A stretch of DNA of 53,225 nucleotides from Paracoccaceae bacterium (GTDB lineage Bacteria; Pseudomonadota; Alphaproteobacteria; Rhodobacterales; Rhodobacteraceae), in NCBI GenBank assembly GCA_020447005.1, contig JAGRDO010000028.1, positions 1,516 to 54,740 on the forward strand. The letters run 5' to 3'. The position numbers and the translations under genes are program-made. The notes under the pieces are model-generated. The model had not been told where the DNA came from. It was given only the letters and a program-made list of their open reading frames with translations, and searched no databases. Positions 14,353 through 27,965 of this stretch are shown one piece after another. Each line of letters begins with the position of its first letter. Position 1 is the first letter of the stretch.

Positions 14353-14988
14353 ATGACCCGCAATCTGATCCCTGGCATTCTTGCCATGGCCGCCATCGTG
14401 GTGGCTTCGAACATCCTTGTGCAGTTCCTGTTCGGGGACTGGCTGACCTGGGGTGCCTTCACCTATCCCTTCGCCTTTCTGGTGACCGATCTGACCAACC
14501 GCCTTCAGGGGGCCGCTGCCGCGCGCAAGGTTGTGGTGGCCGGTTTCGTGACCGGCCTGATCTGTTCGCTGATCGGCACGCAGATCGTGCTGCAGGGGGA
14601 CGGGTTCACCTATCCCGCCGTGACGCTCCGGATCGCGCTTGGTTCGGGCCTTGCCTTTCTGGCCGCGCAGCTCATGGACGTGCATGTCTTCAACCGCCTT
14701 CGCGTGGGCAGCTGGTGGCGCGCGCCACTGGTCTCGACGCTGATCGGTGCATCGCTCGACACCGCGATCTTCTTCACGATCGCATTCTCGGCCACGCTGA
14801 CCGTTCTTGAGCCTTCAAACGATGTCAGCTGGGCCGGAGAGATGCTTCCGCTTCTGGGGCATGGGCCTTTGGCGCCGCTCTGGGCCTCGCTCGCAACCGC
14901 CGACTGGCTGGTCAAGCTGGCCCTGGCCGCTGTGGCGCTGATACCCTTCCGGGTCATTGTTTCAAGATTGACGGAAAAAGTTGCGTAA
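14353..14988 (+). CDS. yhhQ: Queuosine precursor transporter (YhhQ/DUF165/VUT family)
   Basis: 211-residue inner-membrane protein with about six helices and the DUF165 signature FTYPFAFLVTDLTNRLQG near residues 37-54. YhhQ family proteins import preQ0/preQ1 for synthesis of the tRNA wobble base queuosine. The two conserved charged stretches, around LTNR and the LMDVHVFNRLR segment, are present. The start follows a GGAAA site. The 92-base upstream region is foldable and may be regulatory. The next genes downstream are unrelated. Confidence 0.88.
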   Translation: MTRNLIPGILAMAAIVVASNILVQFLFGDWLTWGAFTYPFAFLVTDLTNRLQGAAAARKVVVAGFVTGLICSLIGTQIVLQGDGFTYPAVTLRIALGSGLAFLAAQLMDVHVFNRLRVGSWWRAPLVSTLIGASLDTAIFFTIAFSATLTVLEPSNDVSWAGEMLPLLGHGPLAPLWASLATADWLVKLALAAVALIPFRVIVSRLTEKVA

Positions 14989-14994
14989 AAACGT

Positions 14995-15000
14995 TTGACA
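14995..15000 (+). promoter_or_regulatory. Perfect -35-like TTGACA
   Basis: TTGACA lies seven bases after the transporter stop and about 40 bases before the 16S-complementary leader. No good -10 hexamer is found at 16-18 bases; GATAAC at 15026-15031 is 25 bases away. It is the only promoter-like element for the RNA region downstream, and is therefore tentative. Confidence 0.3.
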
Positions 15001-15041
15001 GCCGGAAAATCTGTGGCAGCCTGTGGATAACGGCAACGCAG

Positions 15042-15059
15042 AGAAAGGAGGTGATCCAG
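15042..15059 (+). promoter_or_regulatory. 18-nt perfect complement of 16S rRNA 3' end
   Basis: The 18 bases AGAAAGGAGGTGATCCAG are an exact reverse complement of the 3' terminus of alphaproteobacterial 16S rRNA (CTGGATCACCTCCTTTCT, from established knowledge). Ordinary Shine-Dalgarno sites pair over 4-8 bases. The core AGGAGG sits six bases before a GTG codon at 15059, so it can serve as an extreme ribosome-binding site. It could also act as a sequence that traps or senses 30S subunits. Confidence 0.8.
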
Positions 15060-15115
15060 TGTCTAGAGTGATATTGGAGAGAGGTGTCGGGACAGTCAGG
15101 GGGGCCGTGGCCTAA
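15059..15115 (+). CDS. 18-codon leader peptide MSRVILERGVGTVRGAVA
   Basis: Starting at the GTG placed optimally behind the extended Shine-Dalgarno, an 18-codon frame runs to TAA at 15113. It encodes a basic, Val/Gly-rich peptide with no recognised motif. The 5' arms of the downstream stems (15083-15089 and 15093-15101) lie inside this frame, so a translating ribosome would melt them. That arrangement is typical of leader peptides that control downstream expression. Whether the peptide itself matters is unknown. If the TAA were read through, the frame stays open for another 18 codons. Confidence 0.5.
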   Translation: MSRVILERGVGTVRGAVA

Positions 15116-15235
15116 GGGCAAACCCAAGGGTTTCAAACCCTGACTGGGCCTCGTCGACCTTCGACACCCTAACTGGCCCATCTCCGTAGATCTCGGAGGG
15201 CCGCTCCAACCCGGAGCGGCCCTTTCCGTTTTCCG
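15083..15235 (+). ncRNA. Structured RNA with terminator, unknown family
   Basis: Nested perfect stems: GGTGTCG (15083-15089) with CGACACC (15162-15168), and CAGTCAGGG (15093-15101) with CCCTGACTG (15138-15146). An inner AAACCC-AA-GGGTTT hairpin (15120-15133) lies within. A further hairpin CTCCG/CGGAG (15182-15186 with 15194-15198) leads into a rho-independent terminator. With the preceding leader ORF this makes a discrete transcription unit or attenuator of about 190-240 bases. It does not match tmRNA, RNase P, SRP or 6S RNA as far as can be judged by eye. Confidence 0.55.
15198..15232 (+). terminator. Strong rho-independent terminator
   Basis: A perfect 10-bp stem GGGCCGCTCC / GGAGCGGCCC with loop AACCC is followed by TTTCCGTTTT. 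It is the best terminator in the window and stands 96 bases before the zinc-finger gene. The rest of the interval 15233-15327 shows nothing else. Confidence 0.85.
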
Positions 15236-15327
15236 GAAAGAAGAAGTCCCCGTGCGGCGCTGGCGGCGCTTGTCCGCGCCGCCGTAATCGCTAAGATTGC
15301 ACGGCGTGACGAGACGGAGCCAGTACC

Positions 15328-15513
15328 ATGAAATTCCCCGCCCCCGAAACCGAGGTTGTGACAAGCTGGAAGGTCGCCTGCGATGGCGGTGACGGCGCAT
15401 TGGGGCACCCGCGTGTCTGGCTGACGATTCCCGCCGATGACGGGTTTGTCGAATGCGGCTATTGCGACAAGAAATATGTGATCGACCGCGATCACGCCGG
15501 CGACGGGCACTGA
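15328..15513 (+). CDS. Small zinc-finger protein (zf-CHCC, NDUFS6-like)
   Basis: 61-residue protein with the CHCC zinc motif: Cys18, His27, Cys43 and Cys46 (C-x8-H-x15-C-x2-C), with HPRVWL and [11 protein letters not shown] as in the NDUFS6-like family of small alphaproteobacterial proteins. In mitochondria the homologous domain belongs to complex I; the bacterial role is not established. The ATG has an ACGGAG-like site. It is preceded by the terminator-bearing leader RNA, which could control it if the terminator is conditional. Confidence 0.88.
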
Positions 15514-27879: not shown

Positions 27880-27965
27880 GCCCGCGTGGTGGAATGGTAG
27901 ACACAGGGGACTTAAAATCCCTAGGCCGAAAGGCCGTGCCGGTTCAAATCCGGCCGCGGGTACCA
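27880..27965 (+). tRNA. tRNA-Leu (anticodon TAA)
   Basis: An 86-base class-II tRNA including an encoded CCA end. The acceptor stem GCCCGCG pairs with CGCGGGT (one G-T), the D-loop region is GTGGTGGAATGGTAGAC, and the anticodon arm GGGGA-CTTAAAA-TCCCT carries TAA. The long variable arm AGGCCGAAAGGCC is typical for leucine, and GGTTCAAATCC is the T arm. It stands between putR and the capsule-export genes. Confidence 0.95.

Follow-up and report, generated by a model that had tools for sequence, protein, structure and literature searches.

Comparative sequence evidence indicates that the window (the whole stretch of DNA analysed, 53,225 nt) carries a real, well-conserved element of about 190 nt, in which a ribosome-binding site (RBS) complementary to the tail of 16S rRNA opens a frame of 18 codons. 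The element looks like the Rhodobacterales form of an old, class-wide alphaproteobacterial element resembling the catalogued RNA CC2171. We propose that it is a mini-mRNA that would be opened by invasion of the 30S subunit and would act as a translation-capacity switch, a reading that we hold to be evenly balanced between right and wrong; the occlusion of its RBS is predicted from folding models, and the switching and its output are what we infer. If the reading is true, what is catalogued as a family of non-coding sRNA is in fact a widespread alphaproteobacterial mini-mRNA, and it would give a handle on the question of whether bacterial RNA devices read free 30S subunits or initiation capacity directly.

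The original prediction started from an exact complement of the last 18 bases of alphaproteobacterial 16S rRNA, and direct reading of the sequence bore this out: AGAAAGGAGGTGATCCAG matches the reverse complement of the 16S 3' end CTGGATCACCTCCTTTCT at all 18 nt, and its last base is also the first base of the GTG start at 15059. By arithmetic, the chance expectation of such an 18-mer on both strands of the window is about 2 × 53,225/4^18, or about 1.5e-6. A search of 16 related genomes located the 16S end CTGGATCACCTCCTTTCT in 3, namely G045 (twice), G141 and G211, and the other 13 had no match to a 34-nt 16S-end pattern with up to 3 mismatches allowed. No copy of the 16S end was seen in the draft assembly to which the window belongs, where the sole match to GGATCACCTCCTTTC (at most 1 mismatch) was the element itself. 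Across 114 family loci the Watson-Crick run to the 16S tail measures 16–18 in 65 and 10–14 in 49, and with G-U pairs it reaches 18–19 in 92. The uninterrupted 18-nt Watson-Crick run is the window's own version of the landing site. The site was also rightly described as far longer than a normal Shine-Dalgarno (SD), here within a conserved element; the spacing from the AGGAGG core to the GTG, given as six bases, is 7 nt. The features of the locus are collected in Table 1.

Table 1. Features of the element and its neighbours (positions in the window)
Feature	Position	Strand	Basis
Queuosine precursor transporter (YhhQ/Vut_1), upstream neighbour, outside the element	14353..14988	+	Pfam PF02592, E 1.1e-27; TIGR00697
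TTGACA, probable -35 of the element's own promoter	14995..15000	+	Hexamer conservation; 49 nt before the SD
Anti-16S ribosome-binding site, AGAAAGGAGGTGATCCAG	15042..15059	+	Direct sequence read; comparison with related 16S ends and family loci
SD arm GGAGGUG of the predicted long-range helix, partner 15179-15185	15047..15053	+	RNAalifold, MFE
Predicted start-codon hairpin, 15055-15062 (UCCAGUGU) with 15071-15078 (AUAUUGGA, codons 5-7)	15055..15078	+	RNAalifold, MFE
18-codon ORF, GTG start, TAA stop, peptide MSRVILERGVGTVRGAVA	15059..15115	+	Length conserved across family loci
Proposed helix P3, 15094-15101 (codons 12-15) with 15138-15145	15094..15145	+	Arm-swap test
16S-tail-like segment ACUGGCCCAUCUCC, 3' part predicted to mask the SD	15172..15185	+	RNAalifold
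Intrinsic terminator, 13-bp stem, 5-nt loop, T-rich tail to 15232	15195..15225	+	Own hairpin scan
zf-CHCC protein, downstream neighbour in the window's genus, outside the element	15328..15513	+	Pfam PF10276, E 1.9e-17

The element is widespread in the window's family. DNA similarity (E ≤ 1e-3) found it in 161 of 198 family genomes, and the search of Rhodobacterales genomes with a covariance model, which the original prediction had proposed as a check, showed it to be conserved, with matches in 175 of 197 family genomes to a model built from 58 members. The 22 genomes without a covariance-model match include G003, a single-contig assembly; the window's genome has one copy. At E ≤ 1e-5 the full family model matched 31 of the 35 family loci outside the training set. 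The family set comprised 120 loci, from which we removed the duplicates L040 and L044 and four loci without the core at up to 3 substitutions, leaving 114. The four set aside (L042, L098, L045 and L052) all proved on reading to have 18-codon frames, which brings the total of distinct loci to 118; the frames of L045 and L052 were read by eye, and both have a spacer one base shorter.

The stem-loop and terminator that had been claimed to follow the frame were recovered both by our hairpin scan and by fold prediction. Of the 114 family loci, 106 reached a terminator score of at least 25, as did 87 of the 100 loci of a second, pooled set (among the matches listed), compared with 37 of 861 control windows; these 106 and 87 loci are the ones used in the structure and terminator tests. 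A stricter scan for T-runs called no terminator within 14900–15400. At the other end, 89 of the 114 family loci have a TTGAC[AC]-like hexamer (at most 1 substitution) 38–62 nt 5' of the SD, mostly at 48–50 nt, compared with 54 of 342 control windows. A sigma-70 promoter scan of 14900–15400 found none. From the conserved hexamer we infer that the element probably has its own promoter.

The reading frame is the second constant feature. As claimed, a GTG (15059–15061) opens 18 codons that end at a TAA (15113–15115), and the length is exactly 18 codons in 105 of 114 distinct family loci, or 109 of 118 once the four later-added loci are counted. The nine exceptions among the 114 have 17, 20 (four loci), 25, 26 (two loci) and 31 codons. 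GTG is the start in 108 of the 114 loci and ATG in 6, with TTG in one of the four added later, and the stops are divided among TGA (56), TAG (40) and TAA (18). Comparison of the loci thus indicates that the frame is under selection, since start, length and stop are kept although the start and stop codons alternate, and the mini-ORF is probably translated. A non-coding base-pairing sRNA would have no selected frame, and the 18 codons kept in those 109 loci speak against that class.

The same evidence bears on whether the RNA is a decoy that holds 30S subunits, comparable to 6S RNA, which holds RNA polymerase. Such a 30S-sequestering small RNA was among the earlier suggestions, and it would agree with the long 16S-tail complementarity in loci across the class and with the very stable duplex predicted with the 16S tail. 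A decoy would have no need of a start codon, an 18-codon frame or a stop, yet all three are selected, and it would require an abundance near that of ribosomes. We therefore disfavour this role and regard it as very unlikely.

Selection on the frame could also mean that the locus is a strongly translated micropeptide gene, with the peptide as the product and the RNA folds incidental. This would suit the fixed ORF length, the selected start and stop, and the SR, LE and GVGT residues conserved in the family. Among the 103 GTG-started 18-codon family loci, codon 2 is a TCN serine (TCT, TCG, TCA or TCC) in 99, codon 11 is mostly GGG or GGA, the changes at both codons being synonymous, and codon 18, before the stop, is free to vary. 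Codon 7 is GAG in all 103 and codon 12 is ACA in 100, the third base being fixed too; together with compensation in the proposed helix P3, this suggests a constraint at the RNA level on top of the coding constraint. In an arm-swap test, P3's own arm beats swapped arms in 87 of 106 family loci; P3 was not called by RNAalifold (58 sequences), and the window's single-sequence MFE pairs the region differently. The RNA-level constraint argues against incidental folds, as do the free C-terminal codons against a peptide product. Across orders, moreover, the peptides share little past an initial MS and run to 14–35 aa, with three of 57–59 and one of 104 (among the matches listed). We consider the micropeptide reading distinctly improbable.

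In Rhodobacterales the locus is linked to the ribosome-rescue gene arfB. In 106 of the 114 family loci yhhQ precedes the element in the same orientation; arfB follows it (+) in 94 of the 114, and in 87 of these 94 the match starts within 350 nt of the SD. L007 (976–1398) is an example of the order yhhQ, element, arfB on one strand, in which a ribosome-rescue gene adjoins a translation-related RNA. By tblastn, the zf-CHCC gene follows the element at 2 of the 114 family loci, that of the window and that of its congener; in the window's genome an ArfB match is on another contig (C131), and zf-CHCC follows the element instead. The proposal of a leader controlling the downstream zinc-finger gene therefore fails, ArfB being the usual neighbour.

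Outside the family type the neighbourhood is open. The non-Rhodobacterales set was defined by type of ORF rather than by taxonomy (82 of 100 loci, 69 of them with a terminator, among the matches listed). Of its 79 loci for which a downstream gene was called, 40 have that gene on the element's strand and 39 have it on the other one (among the matches listed), a split that again tells against control of the zinc-finger gene. The downstream proteins, 76 of which were called with our own simple gene finder for comparison with Pfam, are diverse, the commonest Pfam family, DUF188, accounting for 7 of the 76 (among the matches listed). Because downstream genes outside the family type are diverse and lie on both strands equally, the element looks autonomous on present sequence comparisons and not like a zinc-finger leader. 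The DUF188 proteins are of the YaiI/YqxD type. Three of the 76 proteins match Pfam RNB and three the cold-shock domain CSD2, both RNase R-like (among the matches listed); the RNB loci are probably L152, L168 and L206, a guess from start sequences and lengths.

Since the element usually sits between yhhQ and arfB in the family, a role in cis on arfB is the main rival to an autonomous mini-mRNA. The element would then be a ribosome-dependent attenuator of the next gene, mostly that for ArfB: whenever the leader ORF is translated poorly, RNA polymerase would read through the terminator and ArfB would be made. The conserved order of the three, all on the (+) strand, fits this, a sensor of translation status makes sense ahead of a ribosome-rescue gene, and the S. 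meliloti duf1127 leader works in a similar style, as far as the accessible part of that paper shows (PMC12218461). The window's genome keeps the element although its ArfB match sits on another contig, and outside the Rhodobacterales type neither the strand nor the identity of the next gene is constant (among the matches listed). We judge the attenuator to be unlikely. On the constant target expected of a trpL-type leader the neighbourhoods point both ways: arfB is frequent in the family, missing from the window's locus, and outside the family the downstream genes are mixed (among the matches listed).

Folding predictions supply the case for a switch. An alignment of 58 of the 106 family loci with a terminator score of at least 25 gave, with RNAalifold, a start-codon hairpin (consensus columns 13-20:29-36) and, unguided, a long-range SD helix (columns 5-10:152-157), and both also appear in the window's single-sequence MFE. 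The segment before the terminator that masks the SD reads CACCUCC in other branches, and each of the two masks is similar to one half of the 16S tail. Predicted pairing of the SD was 0.952 against 0.713 in shuffles and lay above the shuffle in 98 of 106 family loci; for the start codon it was 0.858 against 0.581 and lay above in 93 of 106. In this control the sequence 3' of the start region was shuffled. We left the difference in folding energy between real and shuffled sequences out of the argument because the shuffles destroy the terminator. The RBS is thus predicted to be folded shut in the window's family. Among the 58 sequences, both-sided changes occur in 8 of 27 predicted pairs; seven of these pairs belong to the terminator and the eighth is at columns 138:146. 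The SD and start-codon helices, where the RBS side is nearly invariant, have none. A fourth family helix, involving codons 16–18 and the stop, is weak (67 of 106 in the arm-swap test).

In non-family loci (among the matches listed) pairing did not exceed that in shuffles, either for the SD (0.701 against 0.748) or for the start codon (0.527 against 0.595), and we rejected SD occlusion as a class-wide trait. The lack of excess suggests that switching by occlusion may have arisen as an elaboration within Rhodobacterales rather than being the ancestral function. Of the original ideas on function, the translation-strength sensor fits best; its basis in an RBS occluded beyond shuffles stands as a prediction within the family and does not extend outside it.

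The predicted energies favour opening by the ribosome. Exposing the site would cost about 10 kcal/mol and the duplex with the 16S tail would yield about −33, a net of about −23. With a 7-nt core SD the net is −4.7 kcal/mol, and it is favourable in 103 of 106 family loci. Because the 7-nt core is already predicted to open the fold, the long match is not strictly needed, and energetics alone leave the match length unexplained.

In the switch that we propose, the element would be a stand-alone mini-mRNA of about 190 nt that has a terminator, and probably also a promoter, to itself. A 30S subunit would land on it by near-complete base pairing between the landing site and the 16S tail, and translation would yield an 18-residue peptide. 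At rest, two segments in cis, each resembling half of the 16S tail, would mask the landing site: UUGGA in codons 6–7 would cover UCCAG and the start codon, and CAUCUCC or CACCUCC before the terminator would cover GGAGGUG. The extended complementarity would allow a free 30S subunit to displace both masks. The RNA would thereby toggle between a closed state when free 30S subunits are few and a ribosome-loaded state when they are many, and would report initiation capacity. The output might run through the stability of the RNA or through exposure of the released 3' segment. One form of the latter is speculative, and we give it little credence: capture of the 30S subunit would free the anti-SD sequence CACCUCC/CAUCUCC, which would mask strong-SD mRNAs in trans and provide negative feedback on initiation without a protein. 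If that were true, surplus initiation capacity would be converted directly into repression of messages with a strong RBS.

Related loci recur across the class. An exact 17-mer RBS pattern matched 24 of 289 class genomes, the window included, and all 24 matches open an ORF of 18–30 codons, the landing site itself being set by the pattern. A scan of named genomes gave at least 120 stretches, from Bradyrhizobium, Methylobacterium, Bosea, Azospirillum, Brevundimonas and others. We pooled loci into a set of 100 (L121–L224 less the duplicates L138, L166, L187 and L201), which used 80 of these stretches; the 40 remaining, examined for ORFs only, comprised 3 duplicates and 37 new loci (among the matches listed). 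An ORF of 14–33 codons is present in 97 of the 100 distinct pooled loci and one of 14–31 codons in 36 of the 37 further stretches, so that short ORFs were seen in 133 of 137 loci outside the first family set (all among the matches listed). In most of the non-family loci examined the landing site matches 16–18 nt of the 16S tail (among the matches listed). In the Azospirillum loci L184, L208 and L217 it opens frames of 57–59 codons that look by eye like signal-peptide proteins (MSHGA...); there the longer frame may have grown out of the short ORF or taken its place. L255, where a frame of 104 aa follows the same 21-nt landing site, is the only clear departure from short ORFs among the 137 loci (among the matches listed). 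Given these four longer frames, the RBS block is not unique to short ORFs.

The original prediction recognised no known RNA family. This holds at Rfam's curated gathering threshold, at which the element has no match and the whole window yields only a tRNA, but not below it: RF01867 (CC2171) aligns with the window's element end to end (1–159 of 159) at 39.2 bits (E 4.3e-7; cut-off 75). RF01867 exceeds its cut-off in 0 of 100 family genomes, 80 of which match at E ≤ 1e-3, against the 175 of 197 found with the dedicated model, so the Rfam cut-off hides the Rhodobacterales form. At E ≤ 1e-3 it matches 58 of 278 class genomes, 7 of them over the cut-off, and among 14 control genomes it matches only Caulobacter vibrioides. 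In the best 30 RF01867 loci the landing site is present with no more than 2 mismatches, and the ORF has 18–35 codons; 16 of these loci lie in genomes outside the exact-pattern set.

CC2171, a Caulobacter sRNA, reportedly comes from the study of Landt et al. 2008, and we know of no function for it. It shares with the window's element the GAAAGGAGGUGAUCCAGUGUC block, a short frame opening at the same base, a terminator and a similar length. Rfam classes it as 'Gene; sRNA', whereas the window's element carries a selected reading frame. In many class members the pre-terminator segment pairs with early codons, and in the window's family it pairs with the SD instead. In the arm-swap test, the CC2171-type helix between codons 2–5 and the pre-terminator segment finds no support in the family (own arm 11.89, swapped 11.98, higher in 45 of 106). 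Outside the family the own arm beats swapped arms in 60 of 69 loci, against 53 of 69 for a control arm next to it (among the matches listed). Because the swap test is not clean, the early-codon helix there rests on visible compensations in fixed register, such as CAUUGUC/GACAAUG, CAUUGCC/GGCAAUG, AUGAGAUU/AAUCUCAU, CAUGAAU/AUUCAUG and others; among the 60 of 69 loci listed in the same comparison there are also some with no good early-codon helix.

Covariance models set bounds on the relationship. Model R1 placed a match (E ≤ 1) on the element in 32 of the 39 non-family loci, with scores of at most 32 bits that are explicable by the shared RBS block alone. Model R2, without that block, gave a body-length match in 2 of 39 non-family loci and otherwise short pieces, mostly of the terminator. 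These matches do not demonstrate class-wide homology of the RNA body. Given these results, those for SD occlusion and the Rfam scores, a shared origin rests on the RBS block plus the architecture. By this measure the window's element appears related to CC2171, yet it is below Rfam's own cut-off for membership. In the literature searched, as far as its accessible text goes, CC2171/RF01867 has one table line each in the Rfam 15 and M. huakuii (MH_s33) papers, and we found there no trace of the coding evidence, the Rhodobacterales extension or the split masking by 16S-tail-like segments that the sequences suggest.

The nearest experimentally studied analogue, judging from the accessible part of the report, is the S. 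meliloti duf1127_1 leader. It has a uORF with an RBS that pairs in cis with early codons of that uORF, which the authors propose to monitor ribosome availability (PMC12218461). A short ORF and pairing of the RBS with early codons are common to both. The duf1127_1 leader acts in cis on a DUF1127 gene with presumed Rho-dependent attenuation, whereas the window's element has an intrinsic terminator and, across loci, varied downstream genes; the gene downstream in the window encodes zf-CHCC by Pfam, not DUF1127. S. aureus, in the portion of that paper available, has extended SD-anti-SD motifs and a GUG-started leader peptide, rbfL (PMC13009471); there the 16S match is shorter and control of rbf is in cis through RBS overlap, and we noticed no sequence resemblance. 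The S. meliloti rnTrpL/peTrpL system is described, in the text accessible to us, as a small attenuator-derived RNA encoding a 14-aa peptide (PMC10117765). It has a leaderless start at the 5' end and belongs to a trpE leader, whereas the window's element has an SD-led frame and no trp operon, and MSRVILERGVGTVRGAVA has no run of any one amino acid that could serve as regulatory codons of the trpL type. The accessible part of the same paper also reports SEP1 of S. meliloti, a 23-aa peptide with the top translation efficiency among non-annotated sORFs (PMC10117765), which could be the Rhizobiaceae member of the element class.

Two minor observations came from the Rfam and tRNA searches. The sole tRNA found in the window is a tRNA-Leu (taa) at 27880–27965. 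The terminator end of L144 (1312–1383, − strand) weakly overlaps Rfam RF02603 (BASRCII26), at 30.1 bits against a cut-off of 218.
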